From positions 1 to 64,000 of IMG/VR virus record IMGVR_UViG_3300024273_002055: a stretch of 64,000 nucleotides of DNA; one strand, 5' to 3'. Source of the DNA: a virus. Below, one piece after another: positions 20,546-57,371 of this stretch. Each line of letters starts with the position of its first letter. Position 1 is the first letter of the stretch. The translations under genes were made by a program, and so were the position numbers. Below the pieces are notes generated by a model. That model did no database searches, was not told the origin of the DNA, and saw only the letters and a list, made by a program, of their open reading frames with translations.

Positions 20546-20812
20546 TCAAACAAAATCATCATTTTCATCCAATTCCTCAGACTCTTCTACAGTATCACCA
20601 CCTTCTGTTTCACCAGCTGAACTGGTTACATTATTAAAATATATATGTGTGTCGTTTTTACGCTCTTGCTTAGACGCATCACTTTGGCTTCCATAATAAC
20701 CATAACCACCCTGATTCTTCTGAACGTCTGGACCTCCGCCTGGGGCCCTGTCAACCTCTGTAGATACTATTTCCGACAAAACTTCTCTTACTATATTTCT
20801 TATATCATCCAT
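20546..20812 (-). CDS. Putative virion protein with capsid-targeting-like N-terminus
   Basis: 88 residues. The N-terminal helix DIRNIVREVLSEIV matches the tag shared by at least six other proteins here (basic, Leu/Ile-rich, ending [IL]xE). The remainder is disordered: Gly/Gln/Tyr-rich (GGYGYYGSQSDASKQ) with an acidic C-terminus (EESEELDENDDFV). In T4-like phages such a helix directs small proteins into the prohead and is then cut by the prohead protease; I infer the same here. Confidence 0.5.
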   Translation of the reverse strand: MDDIRNIVREVLSEIVSTEVDRAPGGGPDVQKNQGGYGYYGSQSDASKQERKNDTHIYFNNVTSSAGETEGGDTVEESEELDENDDFV

Positions 20813-29882: not shown

Positions 29883-30293
29883 ATGAAAGAAAAATCAGTC
29901 AGACTGTTAGTGAGGGAGGTTATTAGTGAGATTGCTATGTCAATGGGTGGTTCTGGGTGGGACAGCAACAATGATATCCAGTCATTTCATGGATATCCTT
30001 CTGGGTATGGTCAATTTCCTTATTTATATACAGACATACCTGAAATGTTGCCCGGTGCAGAGGAGATAAATAAAAACAGTGAGCATATAAAAATAAAAAA
30101 ATACGAAAACAACAATGAAGTATATGACTTTCCTTTTGAGAATTTTAAAAAAGGATTTGAAATTGAAAAATCAGAACTAGAAAAACAAAAACAACTGTTG
30201 AATGTTTTTGACATAGCAAAAAAAGTTATAGACAATTTAAGAAAAGACAAAAATTTTTATCAAGATGAGAATGCTGGAGATACACCGCAGTAA
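29883..30293 (+). CDS. Putative virion protein with capsid-targeting-like N-terminus
   Basis: 136 residues. KSVRLLVREVISEIA at the N-terminus is the clearest copy of the shared tag, nearly identical in pattern to that at 20546 (IVREVLSEI). Then a Gly/Ser/Tyr-rich stretch (MGGSGWDSNNDIQSFHGYPS) and a helical, charged C-terminus. By analogy with T4 internal proteins it may be packaged in the head and processed after ISE. Standing alone on the plus strand after topA. Confidence 0.5.
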   Translation: MKEKSVRLLVREVISEIAMSMGGSGWDSNNDIQSFHGYPSGYGQFPYLYTDIPEMLPGAEEINKNSEHIKIKKYENNNEVYDFPFENFKKGFEIEKSELEKQKQLLNVFDIAKKVIDNLRKDKNFYQDENAGDTPQ

Positions 30294-34239: not shown

Positions 34240-34338
34240 AATTATTTAATATTTATTTTTTTAAAAATCAATGTATTTTAGTTATCTGTGAAATTAATAA
34301 GTTTAATGTTATAAACAAAAAAATATATGTTTTTTTTT

Positions 34339-34348
34339 AATATTTATA
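34339..34348 (+). promoter_or_regulatory. Candidate late promoter, AATATTTATA
   Basis: AATATTTATA after a run of nine T, 26 bases before the start of the 941-residue gene at 34374. Confidence 0.35.
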
Positions 34349-34373: not shown

Positions 34374-37199
34374 ATGCATAATAATAAAAAGCTTTATGAA
34401 GAAGTTTCAAGAATGATTGAACTATTAGGAGGAGAGCAAAAAGATTCAAAAACACTTAAAGAGTCTTTTGACAATAAAGTGATATCTAAAAGAAATTTAA
34501 CAGAATCTATAGATGACATAGACTTCACTAACTTATTTGATGATGACTTAAACGATGAGGAATTAGACAAAAAAATAGATAGCAAATTTTCGTCACTTTC
34601 AGCCAATGATGACATTTCTTTACTGGGCAAGTTAGCTCTGGTTACGGGTTCAATTAACAAATTACAAGCTGCGATGTTTGATTTGCAAAAAAAGGATTTG
34701 TTGACTCTAAAAGACTTAAGTTCTGAAAGAATTAATAGAGATGACGATAAAGGTGCTGTAGTTCATAAAGGAAGAAAAATTTTATACCCTGGGCAATCTG
34801 TTGCAGATTTTAGAGACATGATGAACAAGGGAAGGCTTATGTTAAAGGTTGGAAATGAATCAGAAAATCTAGACGGAGACAATGTAGGCAAGGTATTTAA
34901 GTGGCTAGGAGGAACTCAAGGAACAAAAACTTTACATAATATTGGATTTGGAAGCGATGGTAAATTGAGTAAAAAAGGAAATGCTGAACTAAACTTTCTA
35001 GCAAGAATTCTTTCTAATCAGCCAAAAGATGATTCAGAACAGAAAATAATAGAAACATTTGGAGATGCTGCAAAAAATAATGCACTAAAAATATTACTTG
35101 ACCTATATAAAGTTGCAGGTACAAACATTCTACTTCCACTCCTAAACATGGAGCCAACACCAGAAAATTTAGATTCTATTTCAGATGGAGTTACTAAGGC
35201 GTTGAATAACTTAGCTGGCATTAGTGGAGATAAGCTAGAGGCTAAAGAAACTAGCTGGGACTCTTCGAGAAATGTTGGGTCTTGGATTTTACAAGTTGCA
35301 AAGAATTATGCTAAAAATGCAATTAAAAAAAATACTGAATACTTACCAAATATAAATTCTGCTAATCAATTTTTAGAAGATATGCTAAGTAGGGAGGGAG
35401 TCATTTCTTTTTTATCAAGAAAAGAACCTTCACATGACAACTATGCTGACTCAGTAGAAAAAGTGGGTGAGAAATATTTATACAAATATTCAAAAATTGA
35501 TGATGCTATTGATGACTTAAGAAATTCAACTAAAGTTAAAAATCATCATTTAATGCCATATAATTTAGAAATATCTAAATACAAAGATTTATTTTCACTA
35601 GAAAGAAAGGCGCCTATATCAATGAGTCCTGAAATGGAAAAAGAAATAGGACAAAAAGTTGCTGATGAAGAAAGTTTACTAAACTTAGATAGTGGTGATG
35701 AAATGAAAATAAGAAACATATTGTCTAAAGTTGTTGATTTTATGACTTTAGATTCTAAAAAATATGGAATCAAACAAGCTACTCACGACCCTAGTTATTT
35801 ATCTATTTCTGACAAAAAGGAAATACAATCAGGTAGAGATGAGTCTTTAATTAGAAAGAGAAAAGAGCTAGCAAAAGAAAATGCTATAAACTTCATGTAT
35901 AACTTTTTATTGTCTGCAGTTGGTAACACTAAGTATGGTACAGATATAGGCATTTCTGGTAAGGTGAGTCCAGAAATTATGTCTGACTGGATAGAGTCTC
36001 AAAGAAAGACAATGTTGACCAAGCTTATAAAAATAGAAAAAGCAAACAATCCCGATATAGATAGTGAGAAAATAAAGGAAAGAGCTGAAAAGCTAGGACT
36101 TTTAACTAAAGGAGGTAAATTTGCTCAATCATTTAAAGGTGGTTTAAAGGATTACTTTTCTAACAACAAAGAAGAATTGTCTAAAATAATGAAACTAGTT
36201 TCTTCAACATCTCCTGAAGGATACGAGGTAGAGTCTGATATCGAAACTATATTCGAACAGAAAGTTAGGGCTAGAATTCAAGAAATAATTAGAGAGTCAT
36301 TTGTCATAAAAGAAGAAGAGTACGAAGACAATAATTTAGAAGAAGATGAGTTAGATAAATTGATAAATGCATTTGGAGACAGGTTTTCTAAAGCAACATC
36401 TTACAATAGAGCTGGGAATGGTGGATTAGACAAAGAAATTAAAAGCATTGTAGATGGAAATCTATCAAAGTGGCACTTTGAAAATAGTGAACAAGGTCAA
36501 CATAACTACATCAGCTCAGTACTAGCTTCTATGTATAACACATTAAGCAGTTCACAACAAAGAAATGTCTTAAAACACATTTTTCTTTCTTTCTTCCCAA
36601 GAGGTGAGGAAAGTAGAATAGTTACACAACTAATAAACAAACAAGTACCAGGCTCTTTAATGAGCAATAGACCAGAAATGTGGGATGTTATTATATCTTC
36701 TGAAAATGATGGAACTCTATTGTTACAAAAAGCCTTAGAAACATATGAGCCTAAAGGCTCATTATTTAAGTACTTATTGAGAAGAATTCTTAACGAAGCT
36801 AGAAATAAGTCCAGAAAAGAAGATGCCTCATTACATAAAGGTGAAAGGACTTATCACAGTACTTCTGTAGATTCTATTGACGCACCATTAGGAAGCGATG
36901 AAGACGGGAGTAGAGCATATGAACTAGAGGCAGAAGATTCTTCTGATGATAAAATAGGTGAATTAAGAGACAGAATTTCAAACTATCTATATAAAGCAGA
37001 AGATGCTGGATTACTTTCTGGTAGTGAGTTAAATTTATTGAAATCAATCAGTCAATTTGGTTCCGAAGTAATGGATAACGATAAAATTAACTATGAACTA
37101 TTGGGAACAAGAATAGGAAAAAGCGCTTCTAATGTTGGAACTATGATGTCCAACATAGTAAAGAAGATGAAGCAAGGTAGAGAAAAGGGAATTGTATAA
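34374..37199 (+). CDS. Large protein with C-terminal sigma-70-like domain and virion-type processing sites
   Basis: 941 residues. The N-terminal 50 residues contain KTLKES and RNLTES, both of the [IL]xE-S type. The middle (about 60-620) is helical and unassigned. At about 630-640 stands RARIQEIIRES, which resembles the N-terminal tag of other proteins here. The last 300 residues look like a sigma factor: a region 2 pattern (PEMWDVIISSENDG, ETYEPKGSLFKYLLRRILNE, about 765-810), SIDAPLGSDEDGS (about 830-843, close to SLDAPLSSDDDGY in the sigma factor at 55509), and a region 4-like helix-turn-helix (LLSGSELNLLKSISQFG ... LGTRIGKSASNVGTMM). I infer a packaged transcription factor. Confidence 0.55.
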   Translation: MHNNKKLYEEVSRMIELLGGEQKDSKTLKESFDNKVISKRNLTESIDDIDFTNLFDDDLNDEELDKKIDSKFSSLSANDDISLLGKLALVTGSINKLQAAMFDLQKKDLLTLKDLSSERINRDDDKGAVVHKGRKILYPGQSVADFRDMMNKGRLMLKVGNESENLDGDNVGKVFKWLGGTQGTKTLHNIGFGSDGKLSKKGNAELNFLARILSNQPKDDSEQKIIETFGDAAKNNALKILLDLYKVAGTNILLPLLNMEPTPENLDSISDGVTKALNNLAGISGDKLEAKETSWDSSRNVGSWILQVAKNYAKNAIKKNTEYLPNINSANQFLEDMLSREGVISFLSRKEPSHDNYADSVEKVGEKYLYKYSKIDDAIDDLRNSTKVKNHHLMPYNLEISKYKDLFSLERKAPISMSPEMEKEIGQKVADEESLLNLDSGDEMKIRNILSKVVDFMTLDSKKYGIKQATHDPSYLSISDKKEIQSGRDESLIRKRKELAKENAINFMYNFLLSAVGNTKYGTDIGISGKVSPEIMSDWIESQRKTMLTKLIKIEKANNPDIDSEKIKERAEKLGLLTKGGKFAQSFKGGLKDYFSNNKEELSKIMKLVSSTSPEGYEVESDIETIFEQKVRARIQEIIRESFVIKEEEYEDNNLEEDELDKLINAFGDRFSKATSYNRAGNGGLDKEIKSIVDGNLSKWHFENSEQGQHNYISSVLASMYNTLSSSQQRNVLKHIFLSFFPRGEESRIVTQLINKQVPGSLMSNRPEMWDVIISSENDGTLLLQKALETYEPKGSLFKYLLRRILNEARNKSRKEDASLHKGERTYHSTSVDSIDAPLGSDEDGSRAYELEAEDSSDDKIGELRDRISNYLYKAEDAGLLSGSELNLLKSISQFGSEVMDNDKINYELLGTRIGKSASNVGTMMSNIVKKMKQGREKGIV

Positions 37200-38164: not shown

Positions 38165-38986
38165 ATGAAAGAAAGTAAATCACATAACTTATTTTTAAAA
38201 AACTTTTTAACAGAGAGTTATAAATCTGTAGATGAAAAAGTTAATGAAATTAAAGAGAAGATAAAAGAGTTAGAATCAGAAGAGGAAGTTGCAATAAAAA
38301 ATTGGGGTGGAACTGATGGAGACGAAGATGTAGAATTTAGTCCTGAAGAGTTTTTTGGAGCAGCAGGAGATGCTGCTGAAGAAGATATAAAGTCAGACCC
38401 AACAATGGGAGGAAGTGATGAGTTTGCATCCTTTGGAAGTATGGAAGACCCCAGAATGCTAAAGAGCTTAACTGAGGAAGAGTTTAGGCTTATGATTAGA
38501 AAGACAATAAGCGAGTCAGGATACCCTGCTTTGGATGGTGGTGAAAATGCAGACGGTGGAGAAGCTGAAAATGATAATAATGATGATGCTACAGTAGCAG
38601 AATCTGAAGATAACTTAGAAGAAGAAAGAATAGCTAACACAGAAGCAAGTAAAGATGTTAATGAGTTGAGAAATTTCATAGGTAGTCACATATACGGAGA
38701 AGACTTAGGTGATTTGGGTAAAATGTATGTTGCTTACTCGTATGGAGAGCAATTCCCAGCTTATTTGCACTATAAAGACAAATGGTACCACAATACTGAT
38801 TATTATATGTTAGAAGACGGTAAAATTAATAAACCTACAGAAAAGCACAAAAAAGACATGAAGCCTTCAAAAGAAACTCATGGAATGTCTACAATAGGTC
38901 TACAGTCTTTAATTAGAGCATTTAAGAAAAAGAATCAAATTGGTGAAAATAACCATACAGATGTTGAGCCTGGTGAAAAGAATTAA
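38165..38986 (+). CDS. Putative virion protein with two processing-like motifs
   Basis: 273 residues, acidic. KNFLTES (about 12-18) near the N-terminus and EEFRLMIRKTISESG (about 101-115) internally both have the [IL]xE-S form. The region between is helical then Glu/Asp/Gly-rich. The C-terminal part (about 165-255) seems folded (FIGSHIYGEDLGDLGKMYVA, YLHYKDKWYHNTDYYMLEDG). Probably a head or internal protein. The family is not known to me. Confidence 0.5.
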   Translation: MKESKSHNLFLKNFLTESYKSVDEKVNEIKEKIKELESEEEVAIKNWGGTDGDEDVEFSPEEFFGAAGDAAEEDIKSDPTMGGSDEFASFGSMEDPRMLKSLTEEEFRLMIRKTISESGYPALDGGENADGGEAENDNNDDATVAESEDNLEEERIANTEASKDVNELRNFIGSHIYGEDLGDLGKMYVAYSYGEQFPAYLHYKDKWYHNTDYYMLEDGKINKPTEKHKKDMKPSKETHGMSTIGLQSLIRAFKKKNQIGENNHTDVEPGEKN

Positions 38987-42116: not shown

Positions 42117-43232
42117 TCACTTAATAAAGTGCTCTCTAAATGACCTGTAAATCCCAGGAACGCCTTCTTGTTTGTTGCCTTTAATATTGTCTAAACTACT
42201 TCTAATTGACTCGTCAACTTCGTATGATTTAGGTATTTCAATATTAATATACACAAACATGTCACCCACCACTTCTCTGCCATATACTGGTAGTCCTTTG
42301 CCAGATATTCTAAACACTTTACCCACATGTGAATTGGGGGGAATATTTATTTTTATATTACCGTAAGGGGTGTCTATTTCTAAATTTGGATTTCCGAATA
42401 TAGCATCAACAAGACTTATAGTTTTGTCTAAAACAATATCGTCACCTTCTATCAAGAACTTATCATGCTCTTTTTCAAACACATCAATCAATAAATCTCC
42501 ACTATGACCGCCCTTAATAAAATCGCCTTTCCCCTTAATTGCAAAAGGCATATTAGACCTAGAGCCTTTAGGTATGTTTATATCAACTTCTTCTTGCTCA
42601 TTGAAGTTGGAGCCCAAACCACCACAAGGCACACATCTTTCTTTTATTATAGTTCCTCCACCTTGACAATGATTACAATCTACCTCCTGCCTTATAACTC
42701 CCAACGGTGTAACTTGTTGCATAACAACACGACCTCTACCAGCGCAACTATTACAGGTCACATGACTATTGCCACCCTTTGAGCCTAAGCCATTACAACT
42801 TTTACATTTAGACTTTCTTTTTATAACAACTTTTTTATGAATTCCATTAACTATTTCTTCTACTGTTATGCCCAATTTAATCCTCAAGTTCCTTCCCTTT
42901 GATTTTTTAGGTGCACTATATGAATTTCTTGAACCACCAAAGAATTCTCCAAACAAATCATCCATAGATGGGTTACCGCCAAAACCACGATTATACTGTT
43001 GCCCATTATTTGCACCCATATGACCATGGGCATCATATTTTGACCTCTTATCACCATTACCTAATACGTCATAAGACTCTGAAATTTCTTTAAATTTTTC
43101 CTCAGCCTGTTTGTCGCCATGATTTTTGTCTGGGTGGTATTTTATAGCAAGCTTTCTATAAGATTTTTTAATCTCTACAGAAGTAGAAGACTTTGTTACT
43201 CCCAAAATTTTATAATAATCTAATTGTGACAT
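42117..43232 (-). CDS. dnaJ: DnaJ chaperone
   Basis: 371 residues. J domain with HPD at 33-35, a Gly-rich region (about 76-110), four zinc-finger repeats (CKSCNGLG, CNSCAGRG, CNHCQGGG, CVPCGGLG) and C-terminal substrate domains (IPKGSRSNMPFAIKGKGDF, LLIDVFEKEHDKFL). A complete class A J-protein that would recruit host DnaK. With Hsp20 and ClpC it makes a phage protein-quality-control set. An ATCTATTTATT box lies 30-40 bases upstream. Confidence 0.93.
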   Translation of the reverse strand: MSQLDYYKILGVTKSSTSVEIKKSYRKLAIKYHPDKNHGDKQAEEKFKEISESYDVLGNGDKRSKYDAHGHMGANNGQQYNRGFGGNPSMDDLFGEFFGGSRNSYSAPKKSKGRNLRIKLGITVEEIVNGIHKKVVIKRKSKCKSCNGLGSKGGNSHVTCNSCAGRGRVVMQQVTPLGVIRQEVDCNHCQGGGTIIKERCVPCGGLGSNFNEQEEVDINIPKGSRSNMPFAIKGKGDFIKGGHSGDLLIDVFEKEHDKFLIEGDDIVLDKTISLVDAIFGNPNLEIDTPYGNIKINIPPNSHVGKVFRISGKGLPVYGREVVGDMFVYINIEIPKSYEVDESIRSSLDNIKGNKQEGVPGIYRSFREHFIK

Positions 43233-44518: not shown

Positions 44519-46603
44519 TTATTTTTTATTTTTTTTTGTGACAACTTTTTTAGCAACTTTTTTAACAACGACCTCATCAGATTTAGAGATGTAGTCAACA
44601 GACAATTTATCACCCATTTTTATTTCACCTCTCAATACGGCTTGTGATGCTGGGTTTTGTATGTACTTAGTCACAGCTCTTATCACGGGTCTTGCACCAA
44701 ATTCCTCACTGTAGCTCTCTTTTAATAAGAACTCTTTCATTCTTTTAGTTACAGTAAGTTCGTACTCTCCATTCTCATACATTCTTTTTGTTAAAGAATT
44801 TACGTGTATATCTACAATTTTAGAAATGTCTTCTTCCTTTAAAGTATTAAAGACAACTTTCTCATCAATTCTATTGATAAATTCTGGCCTGAACACTTTC
44901 TTTAGAGACTTTGCAATAACATCATTAACATTCATGTCATCAGTTGTACCAGAATCAAAGCCAACAGGAGTTACATCTAGCTCTTTAACTCCAATGTTAG
45001 AAGTCATTATTATGATAGTATTTTTGAAGTTAATTTCTCTACCTAAACTATCAGTCAACATTCCTTCATCTAGTATTTGCAACAAAACATTACTAACATC
45101 TCTATGAGCCTTTTCTATTTCATCAAAAAGAATAACGCTATAAGGATTGTTTTTGACAGCGTCTGCCAACTGACCACCTTCGTCATGACCAACATACCCA
45201 GGAGGTGAACCTATCATTCTAGAAACCGAATGAGGCTCCATATATTCTGACATATCTAACCTAATTAAAGACTCATCATTACCAAACATATATTCAGCCA
45301 AAGCTTTAGTTAATTCAGTTTTACCTACACCAGTTCTTCCCAAAAACAAAAATGATGCAATAGGTCTATTTGGATTGTGAAATCCTGCTGCAGAGCGTTG
45401 AACAGCTTCAGACACTTTCTGTACAGCCTCATCTTGGCCAATTACTCTAGCTTTAATTTCTTCAGGCATTTTTATCAACCTCAAACCTTCATCATCAGTA
45501 AGCTTTTTAACGGGTATACCAGTCATTCTAGCGACAACTCTAGCTATCTCTTCAAGTAAAACATCAACTTTATTTTCTTTACTATCCCTGTCCCAGCTAA
45601 ACTTATCCAATTCTAATTGCTTCTCCATCTTTCTAATGGCATCTCTTGATTCCGCTGCCATTTCAAACTCTTGCTTTTTAATGTGTGAAGACTTAAGTTC
45701 TACTTGAGACTCTATATCTCTTTCTAGTTTAAGAATTTCTTCAGGAACATTTATATTGTCTATGTGAACTCTAGAGCCAACTTCGTCCATGATGTCTATT
45801 GCCTTATCGGGAAACTGCCTTTCTGTAATATACCTTTCAGCATATGTTATACAAGCATCTATAGCCTCTTCATTAAAAGAAACGTTGTGAAAGTTTTCAT
45901 AGTGTTGCTTTATATTCATAAGAATTTCCTTAGTCTCCTCAGTAGTTGGAGGAGCAACCTTGACCTTTTGAAACCTTCTTTCTAAAGCCCCATCTTTTTC
46001 AATAGTCTTCTTGTACTCATCTATAGTGGTTGCCCCAATACACTGAATAGCACCCCTAGATAGAGCTGGCTTAATCATGTTTGCAACATCTAATGAACCT
46101 TGAGCATTACCAGTCCCTATTATAGTATGTATTTCGTCAATAAAAACAATTACATCTTGATTCTCTTCTAACTCCTCTATTATGGCCTTCATTCTTTCTT
46201 CAAATTGACCTCTATACTTTGTGCCAGCAACAATAGATGACATCTCTAGTTCAACTATTCTTTTATCATGCAAAATTCTGCTAACTTCTTTATTTACAAT
46301 TTTCATTGCTATACCCTCAGCTATCGCCGTCTTACCAACTCCTGGGTCTCCTATTAATACAGGATTATTCTTTTTTCTTCGACTCAATATTTGTATTAAT
46401 CTATCAATCTCTTCCTCCCTTCCTATAACAGGGTCTAGCTGATTATTCATGGCTAATAGCGTTATATCTTTACCAAAAGAATCTAGCGCTGGTGTCTTTG
46501 ATTCCTTTCCATCTTTTCTTTTAATTCTCTTTCCATCATTAGGCTCTTTCCTTCCACCCAATGATTCAAATTCACTTTCATCTGAAGACATATTGATATT
46601 CAT
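44519..46603 (-). CDS. clpC: ClpC-like AAA+ unfoldase
   Basis: 694 residues, two AAA+ domains: Walker A GDPGVGKT (85-92) and GRTGVGKT (422-429), Walker B VIVFIDEIHT and VILFDEIEKAH. Between them, a UVR-type hairpin (HIKKQEFEMAAESRDAIRKM, 307-326) marks ClpC rather than ClpB. The VGF tripeptide at 547-549 lies where ClpC docks onto ClpP. The usual N-terminal Clp_N repeat (about 140 residues) is missing and replaced by 45 polar residues, so adaptor use must differ. With the downstream clpP it forms a complete phage ClpCP protease. Confidence 0.9.
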   Translation of the reverse strand: MNINMSSDESEFESLGGRKEPNDGKRIKRKDGKESKTPALDSFGKDITLLAMNNQLDPVIGREEEIDRLIQILSRRKKNNPVLIGDPGVGKTAIAEGIAMKIVNKEVSRILHDKRIVELEMSSIVAGTKYRGQFEERMKAIIEELEENQDVIVFIDEIHTIIGTGNAQGSLDVANMIKPALSRGAIQCIGATTIDEYKKTIEKDGALERRFQKVKVAPPTTEETKEILMNIKQHYENFHNVSFNEEAIDACITYAERYITERQFPDKAIDIMDEVGSRVHIDNINVPEEILKLERDIESQVELKSSHIKKQEFEMAAESRDAIRKMEKQLELDKFSWDRDSKENKVDVLLEEIARVVARMTGIPVKKLTDDEGLRLIKMPEEIKARVIGQDEAVQKVSEAVQRSAAGFHNPNRPIASFLFLGRTGVGKTELTKALAEYMFGNDESLIRLDMSEYMEPHSVSRMIGSPPGYVGHDEGGQLADAVKNNPYSVILFDEIEKAHRDVSNVLLQILDEGMLTDSLGREINFKNTIIIMTSNIGVKELDVTPVGFDSGTTDDMNVNDVIAKSLKKVFRPEFINRIDEKVVFNTLKEEDISKIVDIHVNSLTKRMYENGEYELTVTKRMKEFLLKESYSEEFGARPVIRAVTKYIQNPASQAVLRGEIKMGDKLSVDYISKSDEVVVKKVAKKVVTKKNKK

Positions 46604-49625: not shown

Positions 49626-51125
49626 TTATACAGTGACAACAGAATATTTGCTGCTTTGTTTATTTATCAACTCTCTAATGTCGCTAATTTTTGTTGTTTT
49701 TACAAAATTACCATCCACATATACAACCTCAAGAAGCCCGGAAGATTCCTCCTCTAATGTACATTGGTCTTTCATCTTTATGTTACCACACTCTCCTTTG
49801 TATAGGTGCAAATAACCTCTAGCAGATTTTTTTACACCATCATCAGTGATTGGGTCTTTAAAAATATCTCTAGACTCGCCATTTACAGTAACATGAGTAG
49901 CTTTAACTGCACCACCTTGACTATCTCTGGTTGCATAACCCATTGAATACGAACCAATACCCAACACAACATTTGTAGATGCAAAACCTTTAGCTTCTAA
50001 TCTTACACAAATGTCTTCAGCCCTTTCTAAAGTAATGCTATCTCCATATATTGCTCCAATGTGAGAGTCTAAAACCTTATACCCTTGAGAGTTAACAGTT
50101 CCTCCAAAAACATCCCAAAGAAGCTCAATTACACCCTTAGAAACAGCTTCTTCCATGTTAGTAAAATCATCATCTGCATCTAGTTCAAATCCACACAAAA
50201 TGTCAACAGGGTCTCCAGAATCGGGTCTAATAACTAACTTACCGTCTCTAGATAAAATCTCTTCTTTAAGTTCAGTAATAAACTCAGTACAAACTTTCCA
50301 CAAATCAAAAGAGTCGGAAACAACCGAAAGTATACCAGTTGGATATTGCTTCATCAACCTTCTAAATGCGTTAATCTCATCCTCTTTTCCGTATGCAGTC
50401 ATTACTGCGTGCTCTGAAGCTGGCACGCTGAAGCCTACATCTTTTGAGTTGTAGTAATATTCAGCCGCTTGTAAACAGGGTATAGTGTCTGTTCCACAAA
50501 AAGAAGTTAAAAATCCTAATCCAGAACTAATTGCAGACTCTGGGTGTTGCATTCCTCTGAATGAGAAGTCATGTCCCTGAAAATCGACAAAACCTAAATT
50601 GTCTTCATCAGTTTTTCTGGCATGTTTTACTAATATTTGCTTATAAGCATACGCTAGAGATGCTGAATGTAGTGGCTTCCACAATAGAGAAGAAATCATA
50701 GTTTCTAAAAAGTTAGGTAACCAATAAAAATCTTTATGAGTATTCTTCACGGTGAAAAATGGAACTTTTTCATCTATTATAGTACCTTCTGGTAAAGACT
50801 TTACTTTTATAGGTAAATATCCCAAGTCGTGTAATGACTCAAAGTGAGATACGTCATAATCTGAGCCCAGGTAAGAAGAGAGAAATTCTTTAGCTTCTCC
50901 TACGACCTCATTTTTAGGTCTACTGAAAAAGTTTTCATTATAAAGTTCTTCTATTTTTTTAATAGTATACTGAACCCCAAAAACAACAACCTTTTTAGCT
51001 TGTACAGGCATGTATTTTACACTTCTAGGAGTAAAGTTTGAATAAACTTCTGTAGTTCCCTCTGGGTACATTCTATGATGACTAGTCTTGTAGCCATCTG
51101 TCATTAATAGTGGATTATTTTTCAT
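49626..51125 (-). CDS. nadV: Nicotinamide phosphoribosyltransferase-like enzyme
   Basis: 499 residues. MTDGYKTSHHRMYPEGTTEV, DFSFRGMQHPESA, GTDTIPCLQAAEYYY, VPASEHAVMTAYGK (active-site His), VIRPDSGDPV and GIGSYSMGYATRD match NAMPT along its length. NAMPT makes NMN from nicotinamide and PRPP. Close phage relatives (Namat) instead join nicotinamide to ADP-ribose pyrophosphate and so rebuild NAD directly. It starts one base after the PRPP-synthetase-like gene, the arrangement known for the NARP1 NAD-restoring pathway. Confidence 0.9.
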   Translation of the reverse strand: MKNNPLLMTDGYKTSHHRMYPEGTTEVYSNFTPRSVKYMPVQAKKVVVFGVQYTIKKIEELYNENFFSRPKNEVVGEAKEFLSSYLGSDYDVSHFESLHDLGYLPIKVKSLPEGTIIDEKVPFFTVKNTHKDFYWLPNFLETMISSLLWKPLHSASLAYAYKQILVKHARKTDEDNLGFVDFQGHDFSFRGMQHPESAISSGLGFLTSFCGTDTIPCLQAAEYYYNSKDVGFSVPASEHAVMTAYGKEDEINAFRRLMKQYPTGILSVVSDSFDLWKVCTEFITELKEEILSRDGKLVIRPDSGDPVDILCGFELDADDDFTNMEEAVSKGVIELLWDVFGGTVNSQGYKVLDSHIGAIYGDSITLERAEDICVRLEAKGFASTNVVLGIGSYSMGYATRDSQGGAVKATHVTVNGESRDIFKDPITDDGVKKSARGYLHLYKGECGNIKMKDQCTLEEESSGLLEVVYVDGNFVKTTKISDIRELINKQSSKYSVVTV

Positions 51126-55508: not shown

Positions 55509-56375
55509 CTAACTTAAATGTTGTTTTAAAATTTCACTCCTACTTCTGTGCCTCAAAACTTTTATAGCAGCATCTTTTATTTGCCTAACCCTCTCTCTTG
55601 TTAATTCAAAATATTCACCCACTTCTTCTAATGTCATTTTTGGATATCCCATTATTCCATAATACATACAAACCACCTCTCTCTGCCTGGGTGCTATGCT
55701 TTTTAGTGTTGATGACAAATCTTTATGCAAAGAATCTGCAGCCACACTAAGGTCTACATCATTCATTTCTCCTTCTGAAATTGTATCGTATAAACTATAA
55801 CCATCATCATCTGAAGAAAGTGGGGCGTCTAATGAGGTTTGAGGCTGAGCTGAACGTAGTAATCTAGATATTTTTATCACATCTTCTTGCATTATTTCTG
55901 CTATCTCTTCTTCTGTTGGCTCTCTTTGATTTATCTGCTCAAAACCTCTGGATTCTTGCTTTAATTTATAATAAGTGCTTATTTGATTTGTTGGCAATCT
56001 AACCATTCTGGAATTGTTTGCTAAAGCCTCTAATATTGACTGTCTAATCCACCAAACGGCATAAGAAATAAACTTAAATCCTCTTGTTTGGTCAAATCTT
56101 TCAGCTGCTTTTATCAAACCATAATTACCCTCATTTACTAGGTCTTCAAAATTTATACCCTTACCTTGATATTGTTTTGCAACACTTATGACAAACCTCA
56201 AATTCCCCGTAATTAACATTTGTCTAGACTTTTCATCTCCTTCTTGAGACTTAGTGGCGAGGTCATGTTCTTCTTCTTCTGTAAGTTGTTTAATTTTATT
56301 TATTTCATTTAAATATGACTTTATAGAATCAGAATCTCTGTTTGTTATTTTGTTAGTTATCTTTAGTTGCCTCAT
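55509..56375 (-). CDS. RpoD-like sigma-70 factor (sigma copy 1)
   Basis: 288 residues. The start MRQLKITNKITNRDSDSIKS is typical of Bacteroidota primary sigma. Region 2 includes GNLRFVISVAKQYQGKGINF and FKFISYAVWWIRQSI. Region 3 contains SLDAPLSSDDDGYSLYD, and region 4 ends LEEVGEYFELTRERVRQI, a near-canonical -33-binding helix. It lacks the non-essential region 1.1. It probably redirects host core RNA polymerase. A TATATTTG box upstream suggests early transcription by host polymerase. Copy 2 lies directly upstream. Confidence 0.92.
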   Translation of the reverse strand: MRQLKITNKITNRDSDSIKSYLNEINKIKQLTEEEEHDLATKSQEGDEKSRQMLITGNLRFVISVAKQYQGKGINFEDLVNEGNYGLIKAAERFDQTRGFKFISYAVWWIRQSILEALANNSRMVRLPTNQISTYYKLKQESRGFEQINQREPTEEEIAEIMQEDVIKISRLLRSAQPQTSLDAPLSSDDDGYSLYDTISEGEMNDVDLSVAADSLHKDLSSTLKSIAPRQREVVCMYYGIMGYPKMTLEEVGEYFELTRERVRQIKDAAIKVLRHRSRSEILKQHLS

Positions 56376-56426
56376 TATAATGTTTCTTTAATTGAATTTA
56401 GTTTGAGTATTAAATTTATACATAAA

Positions 56427-56455
56427 CAAATATAAGAATTATTTTAAACAACAAA
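56427..56455 (-). promoter_or_regulatory. Host-type promoter of sigma copy 1
   Basis: Minus strand TATATTTG (56434-56427) is a perfect -7 box; a TTTG at 56455-56452 lies 17 bases upstream, slightly closer than the usual spacing. Confidence 0.5.
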
Positions 56456-56458
56456 AAA

Positions 56459-56487
56459 AAATACCACACAAAAGCATGGTATTAATC
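56459..56487 (-). terminator. Terminator after sigma copy 2
   Basis: On the minus strand ATACCA - TGCTTTTGTG - TGGTAT followed by nine T. Separates the two sigma genes into distinct transcripts. Confidence 0.75.
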
Positions 56488-56507
56488 TTTAAATAATATA
56501 TTAAATT

Positions 56508-57371
56508 TTACAAATACTTTATTAACAACTCTTTTGTTGATGTGTTTTCTAGAAGCTTCTTCTCAGCCTTTCTAGCGATTTGTCTAATCCTCTCATTGCT
56601 ATATCCTAACTTTCTAGCAATTTCCTCCTTAGAGAGAGCTTGACAATCTATACCATAAGTGTATCTTACAACTATAGCTTCTTTGATTGTAAGTATTTTA
56701 AATGCTCTATACATATCTTTCTTTAAAGAATCGTCCAACAGAGAGGAGTCTGGTGCTCCCATACTAGAGTCTTCTATTAAATTAGCTAAAGTTGAAGAAC
56801 TTTCATCAGAGCCCACTTTTGCATCTAGAGACGAATGATATATGCCAGCTTGTTGAAGCAATTTACCTGATTCTACATCTATATCCATATACTCACACAC
56901 CTCAAGCTCCGAAGGCTCTCTTTCAAGTCTTTGTTGTAAGTGTTGCACAGCTCTAAAGTATTTCCCAGCCTCTAAATTTTTGTTAGAAGGAACTTTTATC
57001 ATTCTCTTCTTTTCAGATATGGCTTGTATTATCGTTTGTCTAATCCACCAAACTGCAAAAGATATAAACTTGAACCCCCTAGTGCCATCAAACCTCCCTG
57101 CAGCTTTTATAAGACCTAAATTACCTTCATTTATTAAATCAGCTAAAGGCAATCCTGTATTTTGATATTTTTTAGCAACGCTAATTACAAACTTTAGATT
57201 TGACTGAACCAACTCTTCTAATGCTTTTTGGTCACCTTCTTGGATTAGCCTTGACAATTCAAACTCCCTCTCTGGGGTGATTGAGTCAAACTTATTTACA
57301 TCTGTAAAATACTGTTCTATTGATTTTTCCGTTCTGTTTGTAAGGCTCTGCTGAATTTTTAACTGTCTCAT
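56508..57371 (-). CDS. RpoD-like sigma-70 factor (sigma copy 2, divergent)
   Basis: 287 residues. Starts MRQLKIQQSLTNRTEKSI and has region 2 (SNLKFVISVAKKYQNTGLPL, FKFISFAVWWIRQTI) close to copy 1. Region 3 (SSLDAKVGSDESSSTLANLI) and region 4 (LSKEEIARKLGYSNERIRQI) differ clearly. The changed -33 recognition helix suggests another promoter preference. The gene stands behind a TTG-N20-CGTT promoter, so it may be middle-class or autoregulated. Confidence 0.9.
   Translation of the reverse strand: MRQLKIQQSLTNRTEKSIEQYFTDVNKFDSITPEREFELSRLIQEGDQKALEELVQSNLKFVISVAKKYQNTGLPLADLINEGNLGLIKAAGRFDGTRGFKFISFAVWWIRQTIIQAISEKKRMIKVPSNKNLEAGKYFRAVQHLQQRLEREPSELEVCEYMDIDVESGKLLQQAGIYHSSLDAKVGSDESSSTLANLIEDSSMGAPDSSLLDDSLKKDMYRAFKILTIKEAIVVRYTYGIDCQALSKEEIARKLGYSNERIRQIARKAEKKLLENTSTKELLIKYL

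Follow-up and report, generated by a model that had tools for sequence, protein, structure and literature searches.

A degenerate sigma factor at the end of a large phage protein, a candidate for packaging in the phage head

The locus described here raises the question of why a large phage protein should end in what resembles an RNA polymerase sigma factor, and whether such a protein could travel with the phage DNA into the next cell. The window, that is the whole stretch of DNA analysed (64,000 nucleotides), covers the opening 64 kb of a viral contig of 125,053 bases (G000), which also carries genes for a T4-like terminase (106719), a portal and a tail tube (124046); on its sequence the phage is large and T4-like. 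The gene of interest shares the window with two tandem RpoD-like sigma genes (55509-57371).

34374-37199, plus strand: the sigma-tailed protein, 941 aa, with homologues at L002:6477-9302 (75% identity) and L007:9983-12832 (57% identity)
55509-56375, minus strand: a bona fide RpoD-like sigma factor, the comparison gene, with ~50% identity to Bacteroidota RpoD
56508-57371, minus strand: a second RpoD-like sigma factor

The open reading frame, its coordinates and every peptide quoted in an earlier note on this DNA are present in the sequence. The L002 homologue lies on an 83-kb contig and the L007 homologue on a 232-kb contig, G006, whereas wider searches, comprising tblastn of annotated phages, GTDB genomes, pattern scans of viral contigs with the sigma-tailed protein and five more distant phages (three megaphages, Flavobacterium phage immuto and Microcystis phage Mel-JY01), found no homologues beyond these two at the sensitivity used. 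Related contigs carrying the neighbouring AAA-ATPase gene always have the sigma-tailed homologue as well. Since the RpoD at 55509 is about half identical to Bacteroidota RpoDs (those matched being mostly from Flavobacteriia), the host is probably a Bacteroidota, and likely a marine one. Among further proteins encoded in the window are a Clp-type ATPase (44519-46603), a nicotinamide phosphoribosyltransferase (49626-51125) and a DnaJ-like protein (42117-43232). Elsewhere on the contig the DNA polymerase gene (G000:97583-100886, L004) opens with a segment resembling the C-terminal part of an intein (GKVYDLSFDKDNLFF...CHNT) and is preceded by an ORF with a homing-endonuclease match, a possible split or disrupted intein.

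The C-terminus of the 941-aa protein reads as a degenerate but recognisable RNA polymerase sigma factor, in which region 2 is followed by a region 3.2 finger and this by region 4.

36474-36833, plus strand: C-terminal sigma2-like module, residues ~701-820 (YEPKGSLFKYLLRRILNEARNKSRK), from TIGR02937, local HMMs and hhalign
36873-36911, plus strand: sigma region 3.2 finger-like motif SIDAPLGSDEDGS, from alignment with phage RpoD
36945-37181, plus strand: sigma region 4-like helix-turn-helix, residues ~858-936, from TIGR02937, hhalign and a structure model

The NCBIfam profile TIGR02937 matches the three full-length homologues at E=1.4e-6, 3.8e-8 and 1.1e-7, spanning residues 780-934 of the window protein and profile positions 35-163 of 165 (regions 2.2 to 4), with scores of 28-33 bits that fall below the curated cut-off of 42.9; the Pfam Sigma70_r2 score (18.5) is likewise below its cut-off of 24. 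Apart from sigma, no significant Pfam, PHROG or NCBIfam domain was found in the protein. For comparison, the gp55-like late sigma of the relative G006 scores 18.2 bits with the same profile, and the sigma-tailed protein scores at least equal to it. Since TIGR02937 also gave a false match of 14.6 bits, to a frame that looks like a tape measure (G007:45256), the sigma resemblance was calibrated locally. In profile-profile comparison (hhalign) with 30 Bacteroidota sigmas, residues 668-941 gave P=3.3e-7, while none of 100 column shuffles did better than 7.5e-4, and among 68 ortholog pairs of both phages only the two RpoD genes outscore the sigma-tailed protein, the next pair standing at 0.013. Local sigma HMMs match the C-terminal part too, and at the level of sequence its resemblance to sigma is beyond chance.

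The earlier note had read the last 300 residues as sigma regions 2, 3 and 4; regions 2 and 4 are supported by sequence statistics, and the segment taken for region 3 is rejected as a sigma3 domain, being the region 3.2 finger or linker. This finger does parallel the phage RpoD (55509), as had been claimed, with 12 of 26 positions identical between SIDAPLGSDEDGS and SLDAPLSSDDDGY (E=3e-4 in a single comparison), and the SIDAP within it is invariant in the three homologues; pairwise alignment did not show kinship to the phage RpoD beyond this motif. No sigma3 domain was recognised, just the finger-like linker between the sigma2 and sigma4 modules, and the layout is therefore sigma2-finger-sigma4. 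Sigma3 is absent from ECF sigmas too. The C-terminal 160 residues thus resemble the sigma-70 family (ECF/RpoD-like; TIGR02937, PF04542) in their ordered regions 2.2-2.4, 3.2 finger and region 4 helix-turn-helix. They differ from it in the sub-threshold scores and the lack of a recognised sigma3 domain, and in that the sigma part ends a protein of 941 aa that has another sigma2-like module and a late-type promoter, both described below.

AlphaFold2 models built on three sequences are poor (pLDDT 44.8 for the full length and 55.6 for the C-terminus), the region 4 part of the C-terminal model reaching 65-88. The earlier note had proposed comparing the C-terminal residues with sigma-70 by profile or structure; the profile comparison agrees, as given above, whereas fold searches with both models returned no match at E<0.001. 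RNA polymerase sigma chains were the commonest fold matches of the two separate models, but at E>0.1: for the C-terminal model they account for the majority of the top 20, region 4 crystal structures among them, and sigmaE region 2 is among the matches of the full-length model. Such matches are consistent with a sigma fold, not decisive. The poor models, and the false match of TIGR02937 to a tape-measure-like frame, are what might be expected were the protein an ordinary large head or core protein of convergent helical sequence. We nevertheless consider this very improbable, since scores of 28-33 bits over regions 2-4 in three full-length homologues lie far above shuffles and decoys, and two separate models match sigma chains most often.

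A second module, overlooked in the earlier note, lies in the N-terminal half.

35025-35351, plus strand: N-terminal sigma2-like module, residues ~218-326 (WDSSRNVGSWILQVAKNYAKNAIKK), from Pfam, a sigma2 HMM and hhalign

Weaker than its C-terminal counterpart, it contains the best weak Pfam Sigma70_r2 stretch of the protein (residues 295-321) and gives P=2.3e-4 with hhalign, where the best of 100 shuffles reaches 0.011; the sigma2 HMM picks up the two modules in L007 as well as in the window protein. For the N-terminal half hhalign gave no support for a region 4, nor is a recent internal duplication supported as the origin of the two modules (P=0.024).

Region 4 differs sharply between two otherwise close homologues, being only 38% identical between L002:9050-9302 and window 36945-37199, as against 67-88% for the other large regions, while the helix-turn-helix of the window is 71% identical to that of L007, the more distant homologue, a pattern which suggests that the region 4 module has been exchanged or is fast-changing. 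Sigmas use this region to recognise the -35 element and the beta flap. These data bear on the view that the protein, once packaged, is not a working sigma, its sigma domain having been re-used in a DNA-binding or core-filling head protein, or in an inhibitor acting by titration of host RNA polymerase or by blocking promoters. The degenerate modules, with scores under the curated cut-offs, would sit well with such a role, as would the presence of another sigma2-like copy and of large all-helical stretches in which no known domain was found. Yet the SIDAP finger and the sigma2/sigma4 order are kept in 3/3 homologues, dN/dS is below 1 almost throughout the protein, and the contrast in region 4 between close relatives fits a changing recognition specificity, so that we regard a non-working sigma as unlikely.

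Whether the protein is packaged at all is a separate issue, on which short sequence signals bear (in these a hyphen marks the putative cut).

34374-34424, plus strand: N-terminal helix M.N..K.Y.EVSRMIEL, residues 1-17, with 12/17 residues invariant in the homologues
34455-34508, plus strand: LKE-S (residues 28-31) and LTE-S (42-45), plain [LI]xES sites, neither kept in L007
36276-36299, plus strand: internal tag-like helix IQEIIRE-S, residues 635-642, a putative gp21-type cut site ahead of the C-terminal sigma part
29883-30293, plus strand: tagged late gene (VRLLVREVISEI), candidate co-packaged protein, its promoter 12-mer identical to that of the sigma-tailed gene
38165-38986, plus strand: tagged late gene, candidate co-packaged protein, with FLKNFLTES N-terminal and IRKTISES internal

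A tag-like helix, [IVL][RKQ]x[IL][IL]xE[SA], starts ~10 proteins of these phages, and tag matches of at least 13 bits number 26 versus ~2 in shuffles, with a profile trained on these same proteins. Tagged genes, with similar N-terminal tag-like helices and a shared late-promoter-like motif, lie at window 20546-20812, 29883-30293, 38165-38986, 58786-59316, 60800-61435 and 61748-63469 and at L004:7127-7618; the set may represent prohead core and cargo proteins. The tagged protein adjoining the sigma-tailed gene of G006 (L007:13874-14878) contains a tandem repeat of ~65 residues (KKWGGIDYDDEEEFSPEEFFGDAGDAAEED...), and a tagged large protein, G006:167012, was rejected as a paralogue of the sigma-tailed protein, being unrelated. 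G006 also encodes, on the minus strand (G006:219567-222077, L067:10568-13078), an 836-aa tagged polyprotein with an ART-PolyVal ADP-ribosyltransferase (E=1e-8), an N-terminal tag IRNIIRET and LKES/LTES sites separating its modules, likely an analogue of T4 Alt.

At the start of the sigma-tailed protein no match was found to the strong tag with which other cargo proteins begin (e.g. VRKLIRES). The N-terminal helix of the sigma-tailed protein is a possible head-targeting propeptide, past which conservation drops (38% identity with L007 over residues 1-75). The LKE-S and LTE-S sites, which the earlier note had taken for virion-type processing sites, were rejected as weak: [LI]xES occurs 41 times genome-wide against 37 expected from composition, and with their loss in L007 the two carry no weight alone. 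The IQEIIRES noted near residue 637, ahead of the sigma part, fared better. Located at residues 635-642, it is matched at the same position, between the sigma modules, by IRE-SF, IKE-SF and LKE-SF in the three homologues, and an acidic linker follows IQEIIRE-SF. Chance tag-like matches do occur, even inside the sigma2 helix (LRRILNEA), and the chance of an internal match in a protein of such size is ~0.1, as estimated from tag-match counts; taken alone, the site would be moderate evidence for head cargo. A gp21-type (S77) prohead protease (PF03420, E=2e-34) is encoded at G006:143872-144291 and also in G005 and G008; none was seen in G000, which is incomplete.

The DNA upstream of the gene bears on the timing of its expression.

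34337-34348, plus strand: late-promoter-like motif TTAATATTTATA, the same 12-mer as before the terminase (106719), tail tube (124046) and tagged gene 29883

Upstream of the sigma-tailed gene stands the late-type motif ATATTTATA, and a promoter block, TTTTTTTTTAATATTTATA[GT]CAAAGTACTTTAA, persists across the three homologues, in which ~30 bases around the motif are conserved while the upstream DNA of L007 diverges. In its general form, [ACG]TATTTAT[AT], the motif stands ~10-50 nt upstream of virion genes. In G000 it precedes 7/7 tagged genes versus 17/124 others (Fisher p=3e-6); G006, the fairer test because the motif was first noticed in G000, gives 8/13 tagged versus 49/234 other genes (p=0.0025). 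The sigma-tailed gene may well be late-expressed. Non-virion genes such as those for topoisomerase and RpoD are preceded by host-like TATATTTG promoters, and since the phage seems to use these for its non-virion genes, an injected sigma is not obviously needed.

A late gene product need not enter the virion, and the protein could instead be a sigma-like or RNA-polymerase-binding regulator acting in the producing cell, aiding late transcription or shutting down competing sigmas, its tag-like helix being coincidental. This has in its favour that the sigma homology is what is seen and packaging what is inferred, that a strong N-terminal tag is missing, and that an internal tag has the chance frequency given above. 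But the phage already has two RpoD-like sigmas, to which G006 adds a gp55-like one (165718-166602); the sigma-tailed gene is itself under a late-type promoter; and the [IL]xE-SF site stands at one place in 3/3 homologues. We accordingly think a purely intracellular regulator rather improbable.

Head packaging of the sigma-tailed protein, as suggested in the earlier note, is, then, plausible on indirect evidence, and the best reading, to which we would give a little less than an even chance, is that of a late-made head-cargo precursor delivering a sigma-like RNA-polymerase-binding protein. Tag-like helices would draw the precursor into the prohead core, where a gp21-type protease would cut at the [IL]xE-SF site before residue 642, freeing a ~300-aa sigma-70-like protein (sigma2-finger-sigma4) from an N-terminal part retaining the second sigma2-like module. 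Once ejected along with the DNA, the sigma-like protein would attach to the core of the host RNA polymerase and, ahead of any phage gene product, either direct it to early phage promoters or displace the sigma of the host. Of this, the sequences show the sigma homology, the late-type motif, the conserved tag-like site and the protease gene of the relative, whereas packaging, cleavage, ejection and polymerase binding are all steps that we infer. More tentatively, and with more doubt, we suggest that the phage packages a finished sigma factor within a precursor of two sigma2-like modules, matures it with the prohead protease and injects it to capture host RNA polymerase before phage expression.

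Among the closest known systems are the head-packaged, gp21-processed proteins of T4 (IPI-III, Alt), with which the sigma-tailed protein shares a late-type promoter, a tag-like helix and [IL]xE sites, a gp21-type protease being encoded in the relative G006; T4 Alt acts on host RNA polymerase, as the proposed protein would. The tag of the sigma-tailed protein is internal, however, rather than clearly N-terminal, and the cargo of T4 serves to modify RNA polymerase or to protect DNA; to our knowledge no T4 cargo protein has been described as a sigma factor. The T4 precedent comprises capsid targeting sequences, gp21 processing and the action of Alt, once ejected, on the polymerase of the host (PMC9026906, PMC3012670), Alt being packaged, gp21-cut and ejected (PMC9026906). 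The virion RNA polymerases of N4 and phiKZ/AR9 would serve the same purpose, early transcription machinery entering with the DNA, but these are polymerases, whereas the sigma-tailed protein would be just a specificity or RNA-polymerase-binding factor for the host enzyme. AR9 gp226, the promoter-specificity subunit of a phage polymerase, is likewise a sigma-equivalent specificity factor of phage origin; it serves the phage's own non-virion RNA polymerase and does not resemble sigma in sequence (PMC7598289). Phage polyvalent proteins (PMC5512222) are similarly large, multi-module, late and presumed injected, and the 836-aa protein of G006 has ART-PolyVal; in the sigma-tailed protein, by contrast, no polyvalent-protein domain was found, and the text of the polyvalent-protein paper makes no mention of a sigma factor (PMC5512222).

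Injected polymerases and ADP-ribosyltransferases are covered in PMC3012670, PMC9026906, PMC7598289 (on jumbo phage RNA polymerases), PMC7824862 (on jumbo phage takeover factors) and PMC5512222. No virion-packaged or injected sigma factor was found in the open-access literature searched, and provisionally a virion-borne sigma factor would be new. Complete RNA polymerases are injected by some phages (N4, phiKZ), and an enzyme that modifies the host polymerase by another (T4 Alt). If the reading preferred here is true, loading the specificity factor alone would be a third, cheaper route to immediate control of transcription, and the sigma-tailed protein may provide the phage with a transcription switch that is ready to act when the next cell is entered.
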